From Nitrospinota bacterium (lineage in GTDB: Bacteria > JADFOP01): 25,187 nt of DNA. The notes under the pieces are model-generated. The model had not been told where the DNA came from. It did no database searches and saw only the letters and a program-made list of their open reading frames with translations. The stretch covers positions 1-25,187 of the forward strand of contig JADFOP010000034.1 in NCBI GenBank assembly GCA_022562795.1, read 5' to 3'. Both the position numbers and the translations under genes were made by a program. Position 1 is the stretch's first letter. Each line of letters starts with the position of its first letter. Positions 1 to 23,925 of this stretch are shown one piece after another.

Positions 1-1
1 T

Positions 2-382
2 ATCTTGCCGGTGACGGCGGGGACCACGGTAAACATCCTCAACAGCGACGATGTGCCGCACACCGCCTTCACCCCCTCGGAAGTGGGCGACAAGTTCGAT
101 AGTGGAATCATGGTCAAAGGCGATGCTCAAAGCTTCACCTTCAATAAGCCTGGGGTTATTCCCGTTCTGTGCGCCCTCCACCCGGAGATGGAGGCCTACA
201 TAGTAGTCTTGAAGAACCCTCTCTATGCGGTCTCCGACGAGAAGGGGAACTTCGAGTTTACGAACGTCTCGGCTGGGCCCCATCGTCTCTCCACCTGGCA
301 CAAGAAGCTCAAGACCAAGACCACGGATGTAGAGGTCCCCGACCAAGGGACGGTGGAGGTGACGTTCAAGCTGCGGCGCTAG
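2..382 (+). CDS. Cupredoxin-domain protein, 5'-truncated by window edge
   Basis: The open frame runs off the left edge, so the N-terminus and any signal peptide are missing. What remains is about 127 codons ending in TAG. It shows the type-1 copper pattern: a His in V-P-H-T-A-F near residue 20, then C-A-L-H-P-E-M near residue 57, which gives Cys, His (+3) and Met (+6) ligands. After the copper fold comes a short beta-rich carboxypeptidase-regulatory-like segment (G-N-F-E-F-T-N-V-S-A-G-P). This arrangement resembles plastocyanin-like proteins exported to the periplasm for electron transfer or copper binding; that location is inferred because the signal is not visible. A second exported protein with a similar regulatory-like domain starts 20 bases downstream, so the two are probably co-transcribed. 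The electron partner is unknown. Confidence 0.8.
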   Translation: MLPVTAGTTVNILNSDDVPHTAFTPSEVGDKFDSGIMVKGDAQSFTFNKPGVIPVLCALHPEMEAYIVVLKNPLYAVSDEKGNFEFTNVSAGPHRLSTWHKKLKTKTTDVEVPDQGTVEVTFKLRR

Positions 383-402
383 CTCCCACACAGGAGTGAG
401 AC

Positions 403-1302
403 ATGGCTTCATACCGAACTATCCTGAAAGTCATCCTCGTTGGGTGTTTGGTGATCGGCGGCAGCGTGCTTGTGGTGGCTGCCGCCGACTCCGCAGGCGA
501 TTCCAAGCGGCCGAGCGTCGAGGGCCAGGTGATGCGCTTAGATGCCGACTCGGTGGAGATTCTCATTCCCCAGGCCGCCGTCTCTTCGGTGGCGTTCGAC
601 TTCCAGAATCCATCAGAGACCTCCGACATCCTCACCCTGCGTGAGGGACACCTGGTACTCAAGGGTAGGATTGTAGAGGCCGCGGCCGAGACCCTCCTTG
701 TGCGTTTTCCCAAGGAGGCGCTGATGAAGATAGTGGTGGTCTATCCCCAGCCGACCACCCCAGGGGCGACCTCGGCAGTCAAAGCCGCCCCAGAACCTGT
801 TGCGCCCAGCGCCGGAGAGCCATTTGAATTTGCATCGGCGGCTGGTTACACTGGGGATGAAGCTCTTACAGCTCTTTCGCCCCTGCCAGGGCTTGGCCCT
901 AGGCAAGAAACCTCCCTGGAGCAGCAGGTCGAAACCGCCTTGGATTCCCGCCTCTACGGGAGGGTGGCCGGTGCCGTTGTCTGGGAGGGGCGACCGCTGG
1001 AGCGATGTGAAGTGAAGCTGAAACCCCTCGCCGAGGAGTGGGCACTTCTAGGCCTCTTTAATTCCTTCACAAAACGTGACGAAAATTCTCGCGTAGAGCG
1101 GGAGACTCTGACCGCCGTGACCGACGCTCAAGGCCAATTCGCCTTCCCACGAGTCCCGCCTGGCCCATACGATCTGTACTGGCGAACCCCTGGAAGCCTT
1201 TCGTGGATCCGCCGATTGAGCGCGGAACCCAGCTTGACGCTGACCCCGGGGAGGACCATCGCCTACCCCGTGATCGAGGCTCATGTTCGGACGGTTAATT
1301 AA
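403..1302 (+). CDS. Exported protein with carboxypeptidase-regulatory-like domain
   Basis: A 299-residue protein with ATG at 403 preceded by AGGAG at suitable spacing. Residues 1-28 form a clear signal peptide: a basic start, a hydrophobic stretch V-I-L-V-G-C-L-V-I-G-G, then an A-A-A-D cleavage region. Residues 36-110 are a beta-rich region I do not recognise. After a proline/alanine-rich linker (about 115-145), residues 185-275 look like a CarboxypepD_reg/Ig-like domain (G-R-V-A-G-A-V-V-W-E-G-R, then D-A-Q-G-Q-F-A-F and V-P-P-G-P-Y). It follows the cupredoxin gene closely and may be an exported structural or binding partner. The stop is TAA at 1300-1302, but the same frame stays open and protein-like to 1551, so this may be a shortened version of a longer protein. 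The specific function is unknown. Confidence 0.8.
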   Translation: MASYRTILKVILVGCLVIGGSVLVVAAADSAGDSKRPSVEGQVMRLDADSVEILIPQAAVSSVAFDFQNPSETSDILTLREGHLVLKGRIVEAAAETLLVRFPKEALMKIVVVYPQPTTPGATSAVKAAPEPVAPSAGEPFEFASAAGYTGDEALTALSPLPGLGPRQETSLEQQVETALDSRLYGRVAGAVVWEGRPLERCEVKLKPLAEEWALLGLFNSFTKRDENSRVERETLTAVTDAQGQFAFPRVPPGPYDLYWRTPGSLSWIRRLSAEPSLTLTPGRTIAYPVIEAHVRTVN

Positions 1303-1551
1303 GATTCTGGCATCAATCCCGAAAATGAAACTTTTGAGGGAGTCTATGAGGGCTTCCTCATCATCGAGACCAGAGAAGAAGACGGACACCACCTCCAGGT
1401 CTGTGCCAACTATAACAAGACGCTGTTCTTTGAATTCAAAGATGAAGAGACAGATTCTAAAGAGAACGTAGAGTCAGTCCCCAGCGCCACCTTTGAGACT
1501 TCCGGCACCTTTTCTGGGATTTCTAGGATTGCTCAATATGTCTCGGGTTGA
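1303..1551 (+). pseudogene. In-frame continuation of the 403 gene after a TAA; likely C-terminal remnant
   Basis: Directly after the TAA at 1300-1302 the same frame continues for 82 codons to a TGA at 1549-1551. Its residue mix is protein-like: G-F-L-I-I-E-T-R-E-E-D-G-H-H-L-Q-V, then L-F-F-E-F-K-D-E-E. There is no ATG, GTG or TTG in this frame after the stop and no ribosome binding site, so it is unlikely to be an independent gene. The simplest reading is that a nonsense mutation shortened a protein of about 382 residues; stop readthrough, a sequencing error or chance openness are alternatives. The third codon positions are less GC-rich than in neighbouring genes. The last 19 bases overlap the end of the convergent small gene on the other strand. 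Confidence 0.45.
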
Positions 1552-1703
1552 CTTCCACTTAAGGCTCCATCCCGCATTTCTCTTAAGAGTTTAGTGCTAT
1601 TAAGCTTAATTCCTTCCTTTTTTCTTAAACGTTGAGCCTCCTTGGCGATTTCATCGATTTCACGGGCGGCCCTTTCGATGGCCTCTCGTTCATTCTTAGT
1701 CAT
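1533..1703 (-). CDS. Small helical protein of unknown function (56 aa)
   Basis: A 56-residue protein that I do not assign to a family. It begins M-T-K-N-E-R-E-A-I-E-R-A-A-R-E-I and is strongly charged and helical, with E/R/K heptad-like spacing over residues 5-30. I chose the ATG at 1703 because GGGGAGG lies 7 bases upstream; the ATG at 1709 is almost on top of that Shine-Dalgarno. The open frame extends much further upstream, but that part is low-complexity and lacks a ribosome site. An extended -10 element is seen at 1731-1739 and a 16-bp palindrome at 1760-1775. Size and palindrome would suit a small autoregulated DNA-binding or antitoxin-like protein, but no partner gene adjoins it, so this is a guess. 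Confidence 0.55.
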   Translation of the reverse strand: MTKNEREAIERAAREIDEIAKEAQRLRKKEGIKLNSTKLLREMRDGALSGSQPETY

Positions 1704-1730
1704 GGTCATTCCTCCCCATCGGCTTTTCAG

Positions 1731-1739
1731 ATGATACCA
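1731..1739 (-). promoter_or_regulatory. Extended -10 promoter element for the 56-aa gene
   Basis: On the minus strand the sequence reads TGGTATCAT, a good extended -10 (TGnTATAAT). It lies about 30 bases upstream of the ATG at 1703. The hexamer at -35 (CTTCCA) is poor, as is usual when a TG extension is present. Confidence 0.4.
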
Positions 1740-1759
1740 CAGCCCCGGAATTATGGAAG

Positions 1760-1775
1760 TGGGAATCGATTCCCA
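1760..1775. promoter_or_regulatory. 16-bp perfect palindrome, candidate operator
   Basis: TGGGAATCGATTCCCA is a perfect 16-bp palindrome. It lies just upstream of the -35 region of the minus-strand small gene and about 40 bp upstream of the -35 of the scpA promoter. A dimeric repressor or activator could control either or both. No regulator was identified. Confidence 0.45.
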
Positions 1776-1814
1776 TGTGTGGACATTGGAGGACACGCTC
1801 GGCCCAAATCCGCC

Positions 1815-1844
1815 TTGACAAGCACTGGATGAGAAGGCGATAAT
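1815..1844 (+). promoter_or_regulatory. Sigma-70 promoter upstream of scpA
   Basis: TTGACA (1815-1820), an 18-base spacer, then GATAAT (1839-1844), which matches the -10 consensus at 5 of 6 positions. It lies about 90 bases before the scpA start and is well placed to drive the scpA-scpB-rluB run. Confidence 0.6.
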
Positions 1845-1932
1845 AGCGCAGGTGTTAAGCGCGCCTGCCCTTCGGCCTGGGAGGGAGTTTTTCGCTGCGG
1901 CCGCCGCGAGGCGACCGGCGGTGGTCCAGCCC

Positions 1933-2664
1933 ATGCCATACCAGGTCAACCTGCCCGTCTTTGAAGGCCCCTTAGATCTGCTCCTGCACCTCATTCGGGT
2001 CCATGAGATAGACATCTACGACATCCCAATCGCCCGACTGACGGCCGAGTACCTCGCCCACCTCGAGCTCATGAAGGCGCTCGACATAGATGTCGCCGGC
2101 GAGTGGATCGTCATGGCGGCAACCCTCGCCTACATCAAGAGCCGCACGCTCCTCCCTAGTCCTCCAGAGGCCGACGAGCTCGATGAGGAGGACCCGCGCC
2201 AAGAGCTAGTGGAAAAACTCCTGGAGTACCAGCGGGTCAAGGCCATGGCGATGGACCTTAAGGAGCGGGAGCTGGAGCAGCGGGAGGTCTACCTCCGGCC
2301 TCCGGCTGAGATTCCTGAGGATGAAGATGAAGAGATAATCCTCGACGTCACCCTCTTCGATCTCTTTGAAGCCTTCACGGCGCTCCTCGAGAAGCTGCCT
2401 GCCGACGAGGCCCTCGAGCTGGTTATCGTGGAGATGAGCGTGACCGAGAGGATTCACACCGTCCTTGAGCGTCTGGAGGGCAAGGGGCCGATAGCATTCG
2501 AGGGCCTGTTCGACGGGGCCGCCAGCCGATTGGAGGTCGTCGTTACTTTCTTGGCGCTCTTGGAGATGATGCGCCATAACTTAATCCTCGTTCAGCAACT
2601 CAAGCCCTCCGGCCCCTTCCGGGTGAGCCTGGCAGTGGCGGAGGAGGAGCCCGCATGGAGTTGA
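1933..2664 (+). CDS. scpA: Segregation and condensation protein A
   Basis: ScpA is the kleisin subunit that bridges SMC heads and, with ScpB, forms the bacterial condensin that organises and segregates the chromosome. The 243-residue product starts M-P-Y-Q-V-N-L-P-V-F-E-G-P-L-D-L-L-L-H-L, the hallmark N-terminal SMC-neck-binding segment. An acidic linker follows around residues 110-160, then a C-terminal winged-helix-type region ending R-H-N-L-I-L-V-Q-Q. I prefer the ATG at 1933 because the family signature starts there; an in-frame GTG at 1921 is possible, and the open frame further upstream is low-complexity. No strong Shine-Dalgarno is seen. It overlaps scpB by 10 bases, which suggests coupled translation of the two partners. 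Confidence 0.93.
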   Translation: MPYQVNLPVFEGPLDLLLHLIRVHEIDIYDIPIARLTAEYLAHLELMKALDIDVAGEWIVMAATLAYIKSRTLLPSPPEADELDEEDPRQELVEKLLEYQRVKAMAMDLKERELEQREVYLRPPAEIPEDEDEEIILDVTLFDLFEAFTALLEKLPADEALELVIVEMSVTERIHTVLERLEGKGPIAFEGLFDGAASRLEVVVTFLALLEMMRHNLILVQQLKPSGPFRVSLAVAEEEPAWS

Positions 2665-21358: not shown

Positions 21359-21409
21359 GTTTATCATAACCCCTAACCGTACCGTCCATATCAGTATCGG
21401 GAGGAGATG

Positions 21410-23512
21410 ATGAGCCGGGAGAGCCGGTTGGCGAATGAGGCCAGCGCCTACTTGCGAAGCGCCACCCACCAGCCTGTGGAATGGCGCCCGTGGGGGGAGG
21501 AAGCCTTCGCCGAGGCGGCCTCGCAGGGCAAGCCCATTCTCCTGGATATCGGCGCCGTCTGGTGCCACTGGTGCCACGTCATGGACGGCGAGAGCTACGA
21601 GGACGAAGAGACGGCCGCCCTCATCAACGACCGCTTTATCGCCGTCAAGGTCGACCGGGACGAGCGGCCCGATGTGGACGTGCGCTACCAGAAGGCGGTA
21701 AGCGCCCTTACGGGCCAGGGCGGCTGGCCGCTGACGGCCTTTCTCACCCCTGAGGGTGATGTTTTTTACGGCGGGACCTACTTTCCCCCCGAGGACCGCC
21801 ACGGGCGTCCCAGCTTCAAAAGCGTCCTCAGGCAGGTTAGCGACCACTACAATAACCAGCAGGCGTCGGTCCTGCAGAACGCCCAGCGCATCGCCCAGGT
21901 CATGGAAGAGAAGACCTTCGCCCAGGCTACCCCCGGCGCCATCACCGACGAGCTCCTCGCAGGCGCCGTCACTCAAATGATGAGCGAGTTCGACCCGACC
22001 CACGGCGGCTTCGGCCGCGCGCCCAAGTTTCCGCACCCCGGGGCCCTGGAGCTGCTGCTTCGCAGGGCCCACCTCGCCCGCGACGGAAACGCAATGGCGG
22101 TGGTAGTAAAGACCCTCACAGGCATGGGCGCCGGTGGCATCTACGACCATTTGGCCGGCGGCTTCCACCGCTACTCGACCGACGAGCGATGGTGCGTGCC
22201 CCACTTCGAGAAGATGGCCTACGACAACGCCGAGCTGTTGCGAGTATACGTGCAGGCCTGGCAGGCGACCCGCGAGCCACTTCTCGAGGAGGTGGCCACC
22301 GGCATCATCCATTGGGTCGACGAGGTGGCGAGCGACCCGGCGGCGGGCGGCTTCTACGCGAGCCAGGACGCCGATGTGGGCCTCCACGACGACGGGGACT
22401 ACTTCACCTGGACGGTGGAAGAGCTCCAAGAGGTCCTCGACGGGGCCGACGAGCGCATCTTGGCGCTCCACTACAACATCTACGAGCGGGGCGAGATGCA
22501 CCACAACACCGCCAAGAACGTCCTCTTCCGCGACTTCTCGGCCGAGGAGATAGCCGAGCGGCTCTCGCTAGAGCCCGACGATGTGCGGGCCAGAATCGCC
22601 TCCGGGAAAAAGGCCCTTGTACAAGCACGCGACAAGAGGCCCACCCCTTTCGTCGACCCCACCCTCTACGTCAACTGGAACGGGATGATGGCCACCGCCT
22701 ACCTTGAGGCCGCCGCGGGCCTGGGAAGGGACGATTGCCGGGCGATGGCCGTCAAGACCCTGGAGCGGCTCTGGAGCGAGGATCTCACCGACGGCGAGGG
22801 CTTCCGCCACCGCGGCGGCGGCGACGGGGAGGCGCCGGGTGGGATGCTCGACGACCAGGTCCAGATGACCCGGGCGTTCCTCGCGGCCCACCAGGTCGAG
22901 GCCGAGCCGGTCTGGCTCGAGCGGGCCGAGACCGTGATGAAGATCATCCTCGATAATTACTGGGACGATGCCGGGGGCGGTCTTTTTGATACGGCCATCG
23001 GCCGCCGAGCAGAGGGGGGGCTCCGCTACCGCCACAAACCCATCCAGGACTCCCCTACCCCGGCGGCGAACGCCCTGGCCGCCCAGGCCTTAGGCCGGCT
23101 CCACGCGATCACCGGCAAGCTCCTCTATAAACACAAGTCGGAGGAAATTCTTAAAACCTTCGCCGAAGTCACGAAGAGCTCCGGCCTCTACGCGGCTAGC
23201 TACTTCCTCGCCCTGGATGAATTTTTGCACCCCTCCGCCCACGCCGTCATTTTAGGGCCCCGTGACGACGAACGGACCCGGGAGCTCTACAATGCGGCTT
23301 TGGGCGCATTCCGGCCCGGCAAGCTGCTCACGCTTCTCGAGCCCTCCGAAGCCTCCGACCACCCGGCGCTTCCCGAGCCGGCCCGGGCCATGGTGGCGGC
23401 TTACGCCGGAGAGCCCACGGCGTACATCTGCGCGGGGCTCGCCTGCGCCCAGCCAACGAGCGACCCGGCCGAGGTCGCCTCCACCGTGACGAGCTTCGGC
23501 CTGGGAACGTAA
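21410..23512 (+). CDS. DUF255 / YyaL-type thioredoxin-fold protein
   Basis: A 700-residue member of the widespread YyaL/spermatogenesis-associated-protein-20 family. Residues 1-160 form the thioredoxin-like DUF255 domain: N-E-A-S-A-Y-L-R-S-A-T-H-Q-P-V-E-W, the active-site-like W-C-H-W-C-H (Cys52, Cys55), and V-D-R-D-E-R-P-D-V-D, all hallmarks. The remainder is an alpha/alpha toroid (six-hairpin glycosidase-like), with G-G-I-Y-D-H-L-A-G-G-F-H-R-Y-S-T-D and V-P-H-F-E-K-M. The biochemical role is not settled; redox or sugar-related activity has been proposed. GGGAGGAG just upstream fits the second of two adjacent ATG codons (21410) better than the first (21407). Full length for the family. Its stop codon overlaps the T-tract of a minus-strand terminator. 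Confidence 0.9.
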   Translation: MSRESRLANEASAYLRSATHQPVEWRPWGEEAFAEAASQGKPILLDIGAVWCHWCHVMDGESYEDEETAALINDRFIAVKVDRDERPDVDVRYQKAVSALTGQGGWPLTAFLTPEGDVFYGGTYFPPEDRHGRPSFKSVLRQVSDHYNNQQASVLQNAQRIAQVMEEKTFAQATPGAITDELLAGAVTQMMSEFDPTHGGFGRAPKFPHPGALELLLRRAHLARDGNAMAVVVKTLTGMGAGGIYDHLAGGFHRYSTDERWCVPHFEKMAYDNAELLRVYVQAWQATREPLLEEVATGIIHWVDEVASDPAAGGFYASQDADVGLHDDGDYFTWTVEELQEVLDGADERILALHYNIYERGEMHHNTAKNVLFRDFSAEEIAERLSLEPDDVRARIASGKKALVQARDKRPTPFVDPTLYVNWNGMMATAYLEAAAGLGRDDCRAMAVKTLERLWSEDLTDGEGFRHRGGGDGEAPGGMLDDQVQMTRAFLAAHQVEAEPVWLERAETVMKIILDNYWDDAGGGLFDTAIGRRAEGGLRYRHKPIQDSPTPAANALAAQALGRLHAITGKLLYKHKSEEILKTFAEVTKSSGLYAASYFLALDEFLHPSAHAVILGPRDDERTRELYNAALGAFRPGKLLTLLEPSEASDHPALPEPARAMVAAYAGEPTAYICAGLACAQPTSDPAEVASTVTSFGLGT

Positions 23513-23548
23513 AAAAGCCCCCGACCTCCTCATCGGGGAAGTCGGGGG
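23511..23548 (-). terminator. Intrinsic terminator for the minus-strand selenoprotein transcript
   Basis: On the minus strand CCCCCGAC, a 15-base loop, GTCGGGGG, then C and TTTTTT. The 8-bp GC stem and T6 make a strong terminator. The plus-strand side has no T-run after the stem, so it mainly serves a minus-strand transcript, namely the gene at 23644-23853. Confidence 0.75.
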
Positions 23549-23629: not shown

Positions 23630-23643
23630 TCTGCTTACACCCC

Positions 23644-23853
23644 TCAGGTGCCGCCGTATCCTACGATGGCCCGGCCATCTTCGACGATGGTTGGGACCTC
23701 CCTAACCCCGCCGTTGGCCTGAAGCATCTCCTGTAGCTTGGCAGGCTCGGCCCTCACGTTGTAGTAGGTTACCGGCCCCTTCTGCTTGTACGCATCCAGC
23801 GCATCGTCTGTATAGGGTCAGCCGGGTTTCCCGTAGATAATGACATCGCCCAT
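23644..23853 (-). CDS. Glutaredoxin-like selenoprotein (in-frame UGA read as selenocysteine)
   Basis: A 69-residue protein if the TGA at 23820-23818 (codon 12) is read as selenocysteine. It begins M-G-D-V-I-I-Y-G-K-P-G, then the active site U-P-Y-T (12-15) where glutaredoxins have C-P-Y-C. Later come the T-Y-Y-N-V strand (29-33), V-P-T-I-V (53-57) with the cis-proline, and the terminal G-Y-G-G-T (65-69). This is the entire small glutaredoxin fold; the usual resolving Cys is replaced by Thr and no Cys remains. ATG 23853 has AAAGGAG 7 bases upstream. A SECIS-like hairpin follows the UGA, and the gene has its own promoter and terminator. Glutaredoxin-like selenoproteins are known in bacteria. 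A pseudogene with a nonsense codon exactly at the catalytic site is the alternative. Likely role: thiol or peroxide redox chemistry in the cytoplasm. Confidence 0.82.
23789..23803 (-). promoter_or_regulatory. Bacterial SECIS-like hairpin
   Basis: In the minus-strand RNA, UGCGC-UGGAU-GCGUA forms a 5-bp stem (one G-U pair) with a 5-base loop. The loop has G at its second position, 21 bases after the UGA. This fits the bacterial SECIS model (apical loop of 3-14 nt with an early G, roughly 16-37 nt after UGA). A lower CCCU/AGGG pairing right after the UGA could extend it. Confidence 0.65.
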
Positions 23854-23860
23854 CCTGCAT

Positions 23861-23867
23861 CTCCTTT
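23861..23867 (-). promoter_or_regulatory. Ribosome binding site of the selenoprotein gene
   Basis: AAAGGAG on the minus strand, 7 bases before ATG 23853. It decides this start over the two other nearby ATG codons, which are out of frame or too far downstream. Confidence 0.7.
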
Positions 23868-23895: not shown

Positions 23896-23925
23896 CTAAT
23901 ATTGGCCTTCTTCATGGGAAGTCAA
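23896..23925 (-). promoter_or_regulatory. Promoter of the selenoprotein gene
   Basis: The minus strand shows TTGACT (23925-23920), an 18-base spacer and TATTAG (23901-23896). It lies about 45 bases before the start codon and after the MBL gene, which indicates a separate, monocistronic transcript. Confidence 0.5.

Follow-up and report, generated by a model that had tools for sequence, protein, structure and literature searches.

A probable double selenoprotein of UXX-star family 1 encoded on a Nitrospinota contig

The window analysed here is a stretch of 25,187 nucleotides (positions 1–25,187, forward strand) of contig JADFOP010000034.1 from a Nitrospinota bacterium (assembly GCA_022562795.1). 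Its minus strand carries a small gene whose product is very probably a double selenoprotein of UXX-star family 1, with one selenocysteine (Sec) at the active site and a second one near the C-terminus. From the ATG at position 23853, and with the TGA at 23820–23818 translated as a residue, the frame opens with MGDVIIYGKPG-U- and continues as PYTDDALDAYKQKGPVTYYNVRAEPAKLQEMLQANGGVREVPTIVEDGRAIVGYGGT. The full product has 72 residues, Sec at positions 12 and 70 and no cysteine at all. The motifs G-K-P-G-U-P-Y-T, V-P-T-I and GYGGT follow one another in this order, and a threonine (Thr15) stands at the resolving position. In a preliminary description of this DNA the same gene had been read as a protein of 69 residues with a single Sec, ending at the TGA at 23646–23644. 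That codon is a conserved Sec codon, and the frame ends at the TAA at 23637–23635. The ATG start, the UGA at 23820–23818 as codon 12, the G-K-P-G-U-P-Y-T and V-P-T-I motifs, the threonine at the resolving position and the lack of cysteine are all found again on re-reading and translating the sequence. The proposal that the chemistry rests on selenium alone thus holds, with two seleniums in place of one.

For scoring against protein families, Cys was written for Sec in the 72-residue protein. It matches the NCBIfam model NF041114, 'UXX-star selenoprotein family 1', over model positions 1–70 of 70 with 101 bits (cut-off 72; 3e-29) and the parent Uxx-star model NF041212 with 77.6 bits (cut-off 66). 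Removing the last two residues lowers these scores to 97 and 74.6 bits, respectively. Uxx-star families 2 and 3 remain far under their cut-offs (41.5 versus 100 bits and 35.4 versus 97 bits), and glutaredoxin 3 (TIGR02181) is missed with 30.1 bits against 90, while the Pfam Glutaredoxin model is passed (1.3e-8). The hallmark of the family, which as we read its name is a Sec two residues before the stop, is present as G-G-T-U-G-V-TAA. Membership in NF041114 is firm. The NCBIfam and Pfam models are both matched far beyond chance. The identification as a glutaredoxin-like selenoprotein with a U-P-Y-T active site is well founded, as 55 of 80 relatives have UGA and 25 have Cys at this codon. It had also been expected that automated annotation would overlook the gene, which is only partly so since NCBI already curates this family; the gene adds a good further example to a kind already known.

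An AlphaFold model built from an input of 23 relatives has a glutaredoxin fold (mean predicted local distance difference test score 91.8), and the best matches that Foldseek finds for it in the PDB are glutaredoxins. The secondary-structure elements are arranged beta-alpha-beta-alpha-beta-beta, a minimal form of the fold, and the chain stops where ordinary glutaredoxins continue into a C-terminal helix.

Conservation of the two selenocysteine sites

The NF041114 cut-off was passed in 21 of 386 sampled genomes, most of the 21 with two in-frame TGA codons. A scan of named genomes, using patterns taken from an alignment of the closer relatives, provided 80 loci from Methylomirabilota, Acidobacteria, Deltaproteobacteria, Planctomycetota, Nitrospirota, Zixibacteria and other phyla. 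At site 1 (codon 12) 55 of these 80 loci have UGA and 25 have Cys, the two alternatives that the preliminary description had proposed to look for in homologues. One of the two scan patterns has Cys at site 1 and the other contains neither site, so that the share of UGA at site 1 is if anything underestimated. Site 2 (codon 70) is UGA in 76 loci; the remaining four have Cys, Ser, Gly and no clear tail, one each. Conservation is therefore stronger at site 2 than at site 1. Some relatives (for example L091 and L120) combine Cys at site 1 with UGA at site 2 alone, which shows that site 2 is retained independently of site 1. The loci with Cys (L152, 2508–2735) or Ser (L153, 4001–4228) at the C-terminal site both have Cys at the active site and are possible natural non-Sec versions of the protein. 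The UGA-free members from three genomes (G007, G155 and G294) have a CPHT motif and end at or near GYTGD.

Downstream of the site-2 UGA we find a convincing predicted selenocysteine insertion sequence (SECIS) hairpin, conserved in position and covarying in its stem. Because the hairpins were chosen by maximal pairing, the percentage of paired bases is inflated, and the fair tests are the fixed distance from the UGA and the energy gap to shuffled sequence. The best hairpin within 45 nt after the site-2 UGA has a mean energy of −11.0 kcal/mol, versus −4.0 kcal/mol after shuffling, and beats its own shuffles in 99% of the 76 cases. The centre of its loop lies at a median of UGA+23.5 (interquartile range 22.5–25.0), while shuffling scatters the loop widely (5th–95th percentile 11.5–40). 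With the loops of the hairpins brought into register, the base pairs of the inner stem vary between CG, GC, AT and TA across the relatives, and the loops often start with GG or contain GU. In the window itself the U70 hairpin taken alone does not stand out from GC-rich shuffles (z = −0.95), and it therefore draws its weight from the family. Downstream of site 1 there is a weak signal (−3.8 versus −3.2 kcal/mol for shuffles), being slightly stronger in the UGA than in the Cys relatives (p = 0.026).

In 35 of the 80 loci (L121, L123, L126, L128 and others) the stop codon after U-X-X is also UGA, nine nucleotides past the Sec UGA. The family is thus a clean natural test of the minimum spacing, here two codons, between a SECIS-directed and a terminating UGA. 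The correction from one Sec to two in the window gene likewise illustrates that a selenoprotein's final UGA can pass for its stop.

Possible roles of the two selenocysteines

We consider it roughly an even call that U12 and U70 form a redox pair, with U12 as the nucleophile and U70 as the resolving residue. The U12 selenolate would attack a disulfide, a peroxide or a similar oxidized substrate. Thr15 occupies the place of the resolving Cys, and U70 would take over the role of this missing CxxC cysteine and resolve the intermediate via a diselenide, or via a selenenylsulfide in those relatives that have Cys12. A thiol or a thioredoxin-like partner would then reduce the U12–U70 bond. Recoding of the second UGA would proceed through the hairpin sited after the stop codon. 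The complete proposal, a cysteine-free glutaredoxin-fold enzyme with an intramolecular U12–U70 diselenide and with the SECIS of U70 entirely past the stop codon, is more tentative than the pairing itself. Diselenide catalysis could be tested directly with such a glutaredoxin, which has two Secs and no cysteine.

Five of the 80 relatives have a CPYC active site, with the resolving Cys still present, and nevertheless retain the terminal Sec. This speaks against the simplest form of the pairing: either U70 has some role beyond standing in for the resolving Cys, or it reacts with a different partner. The same retention of site 2 next to a complete CxxC pair is what would be expected if both Secs instead bind a metal or metalloid such as mercury, arsenic or copper, the protein then being a carrier or detoxification factor and not a thiol-disulfide enzyme. 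Metal binding has been suggested for the UXX-star family in a review (PMC13188914), and the arsenic metallochaperone ArsD is also among the Foldseek matches, at lower rank. The glutaredoxin active-site motif and the cis-proline are, however, conserved, no metal-resistance gene adjoins the gene in the window, and no neighbour common to the window and the relatives was found. The clustering of gene neighbourhoods, which gave zero partners in common with the window, is weak evidence, as shadow frames had been left among the open frames. We regard metal binding as possible, as the main rival of the redox pair and as less likely than it. A function that is neither that of a redox pair nor metal or metalloid binding is unlikely.

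Selenocysteine machinery in the source genome

We infer that both UGA codons are decoded as Sec in the source organism. Its draft genome (G000; 2.15 Mb in 84 contigs, 97.1% complete) contains a tRNA-Sec gene (selC; 77.6 bits, anticodon TCA) and a selD gene (C27:1-672, L057) that itself has an in-frame UGA at the active site, SHGGG-U-ACK, and runs off its contig. Three more glutaredoxin-like genes with UGA are present on contigs C32 (L033/L053), C46 (L054) and C13 (L055), with the motifs UPHC, USSC and UPYC, respectively. For two of these three the UGA is retained in the counterpart from a second assembly of the same genus (G001), and in one such pair (L031 from G001 and L033 from G000) the stretch after the UGA differs at 1 first, 2 second and 9 third codon positions. 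Across the other genomes examined, selA accompanies the UGA forms in 20 of 20 genomes versus one of 12 genomes without them (Fisher 9e-8, or 7e-7 with the source genome counted as an exception), and the genomes of the three UGA-free CPHT members are without selA.

Several observations weigh against a functional double selenoprotein in this organism. The main gap is that neither selA nor selB was found in the source assembly, although a draft of 84 contigs cannot prove that the organism is without them. In both relatives from the same class (G001 and G002) selA-selB adjoin scpA, whereas the scpA of the window (1852–2664) has other, unrelated genes upstream (window 1–1851). The same-genus assembly G001, which is 85% complete, is without an orthologue of the selenoprotein gene. 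Finally, a SECIS-like loop had been noted after the first UGA; its loop, at UGA+23..27, is at the proper position, but the hairpin does not exceed shuffled sequence in stability (z = −0.06), and the convincing SECIS is the one that follows the second UGA. The absence of selA, selB and selC had been named beforehand as grounds for rejecting a selenoprotein, and the outcome is mixed: the draft has selC and a selD with UGA, and lacks selA and selB. A location of the missing genes in the gap beside the truncated selD is not supported, as in G001 the 3.7-kb contig carries no selA downstream of selD. The absence may reflect a draft gap, relocation or loss.

If it reflects loss, the lineage would have given up its Sec machinery and the gene would be a recent relic that is translated only to codon 11. 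The missing selA and selB, together with the other genes at the site where the relatives keep them, are what this explanation predicts. Against it, tRNA-Sec, selD with its UGA and four glutaredoxin-like genes with UGA remain, free of frameshifts, and the SECIS hairpin of the window gene is still in place. We therefore consider a relic improbable. A sequencing error or a reassignment of UGA to Trp or Gly would each remove the two stops, and is most improbable: in the relatives both columns hold UGA or else mainly Cys and never Trp, and TGA is the normal stop of eight of the 22 plausible genes in the window. A double selenoprotein of UXX-star family 1 remains the reading that we favour.

Flanking features and comparison with known systems

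The features of the gene are collected in Table 1. Promoter, ribosome-binding site and terminator had been described as all in agreement with a gene at this place; the AAAGGAG and the strong terminator bear this out, and the promoter is weak. No Rfam family scores above its gathering threshold in the region. A gene for a DUF255/thioredoxin-domain (Thioredox_DsbH) protein on the plus strand (21407–23512) is convergent with the selenoprotein gene and ends beside the terminator.

Table 1. Features of the UXX-star selenoprotein gene and its surroundings (window coordinates)
Feature	Position	Strand	Basis
Whole gene, 72-residue UXX-star family 1 selenoprotein, ATG to TAA, two in-frame UGA	23635..23853	minus	NF041114 match
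UGA codon 12, probable Sec replacing the catalytic Cys (U-P-Y-T)	23818..23820	minus	UGA or Cys in relatives
UGA codon 70, probable second Sec (G-G-T-U-G-V-stop)	23644..23646	minus	UGA in 76/80 relatives, Cys in one
True stop TAA	23635..23637	minus	Frame reads U-G-V, then TAA
Predicted SECIS-type hairpin for U70, GCCCCGC-GGC-GCGGGGC, UGA+18..34, wholly past TAA	23613..23629	minus	Family position and covarying stems
Candidate SECIS hairpin for U12, TGCGC-TGGAT-GCGTA, UGA+18..32, loop UGA+23..27	23789..23803	minus	Weak alone
Ribosome-binding site AAAGGAG, 7 nt 5' of ATG	23861..23867	minus	Sequence
Promoter-like TTGACT-16-AATATT, weak (9 of 12)	23898..23925	minus	Sequence match
Intrinsic terminator, strong, 12-bp stem then CTTTTTT	23518..23548	minus	Sequence

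Among known systems the protein is closest to UXX-star family 1 itself, with which it shares the full-length match above the cut-off, the length, the C-terminal U-X-X-stop and the order of the motifs. It differs from that family only in detail, being a divergent member with 32–56% identity to the aligned relatives. It also lies above the cut-off of the parent NF041212 model and far below those of families 2 and 3. Glutaredoxin 3 (Escherichia coli Grx3; PDB entries 1fov and 3grx) resembles it in fold (Foldseek TM score 0.70–0.76) and in the position of the active site, whereas the window protein has neither a resolving Cys nor a C-terminal helix, and ends at U-X-X. A selenoprotein glutaredoxin with a UxxC motif has been verified experimentally (cited in PMC13188914) and likewise has a glutaredoxin fold with Sec in the catalytic position. 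That protein has UxxC with one Sec there, whereas the window protein has UxxT and a second, C-terminal Sec. Should the diselenide be real, the window protein would in effect be a small, free-standing counterpart of the selenium-bearing tail of mammalian thioredoxin reductase.
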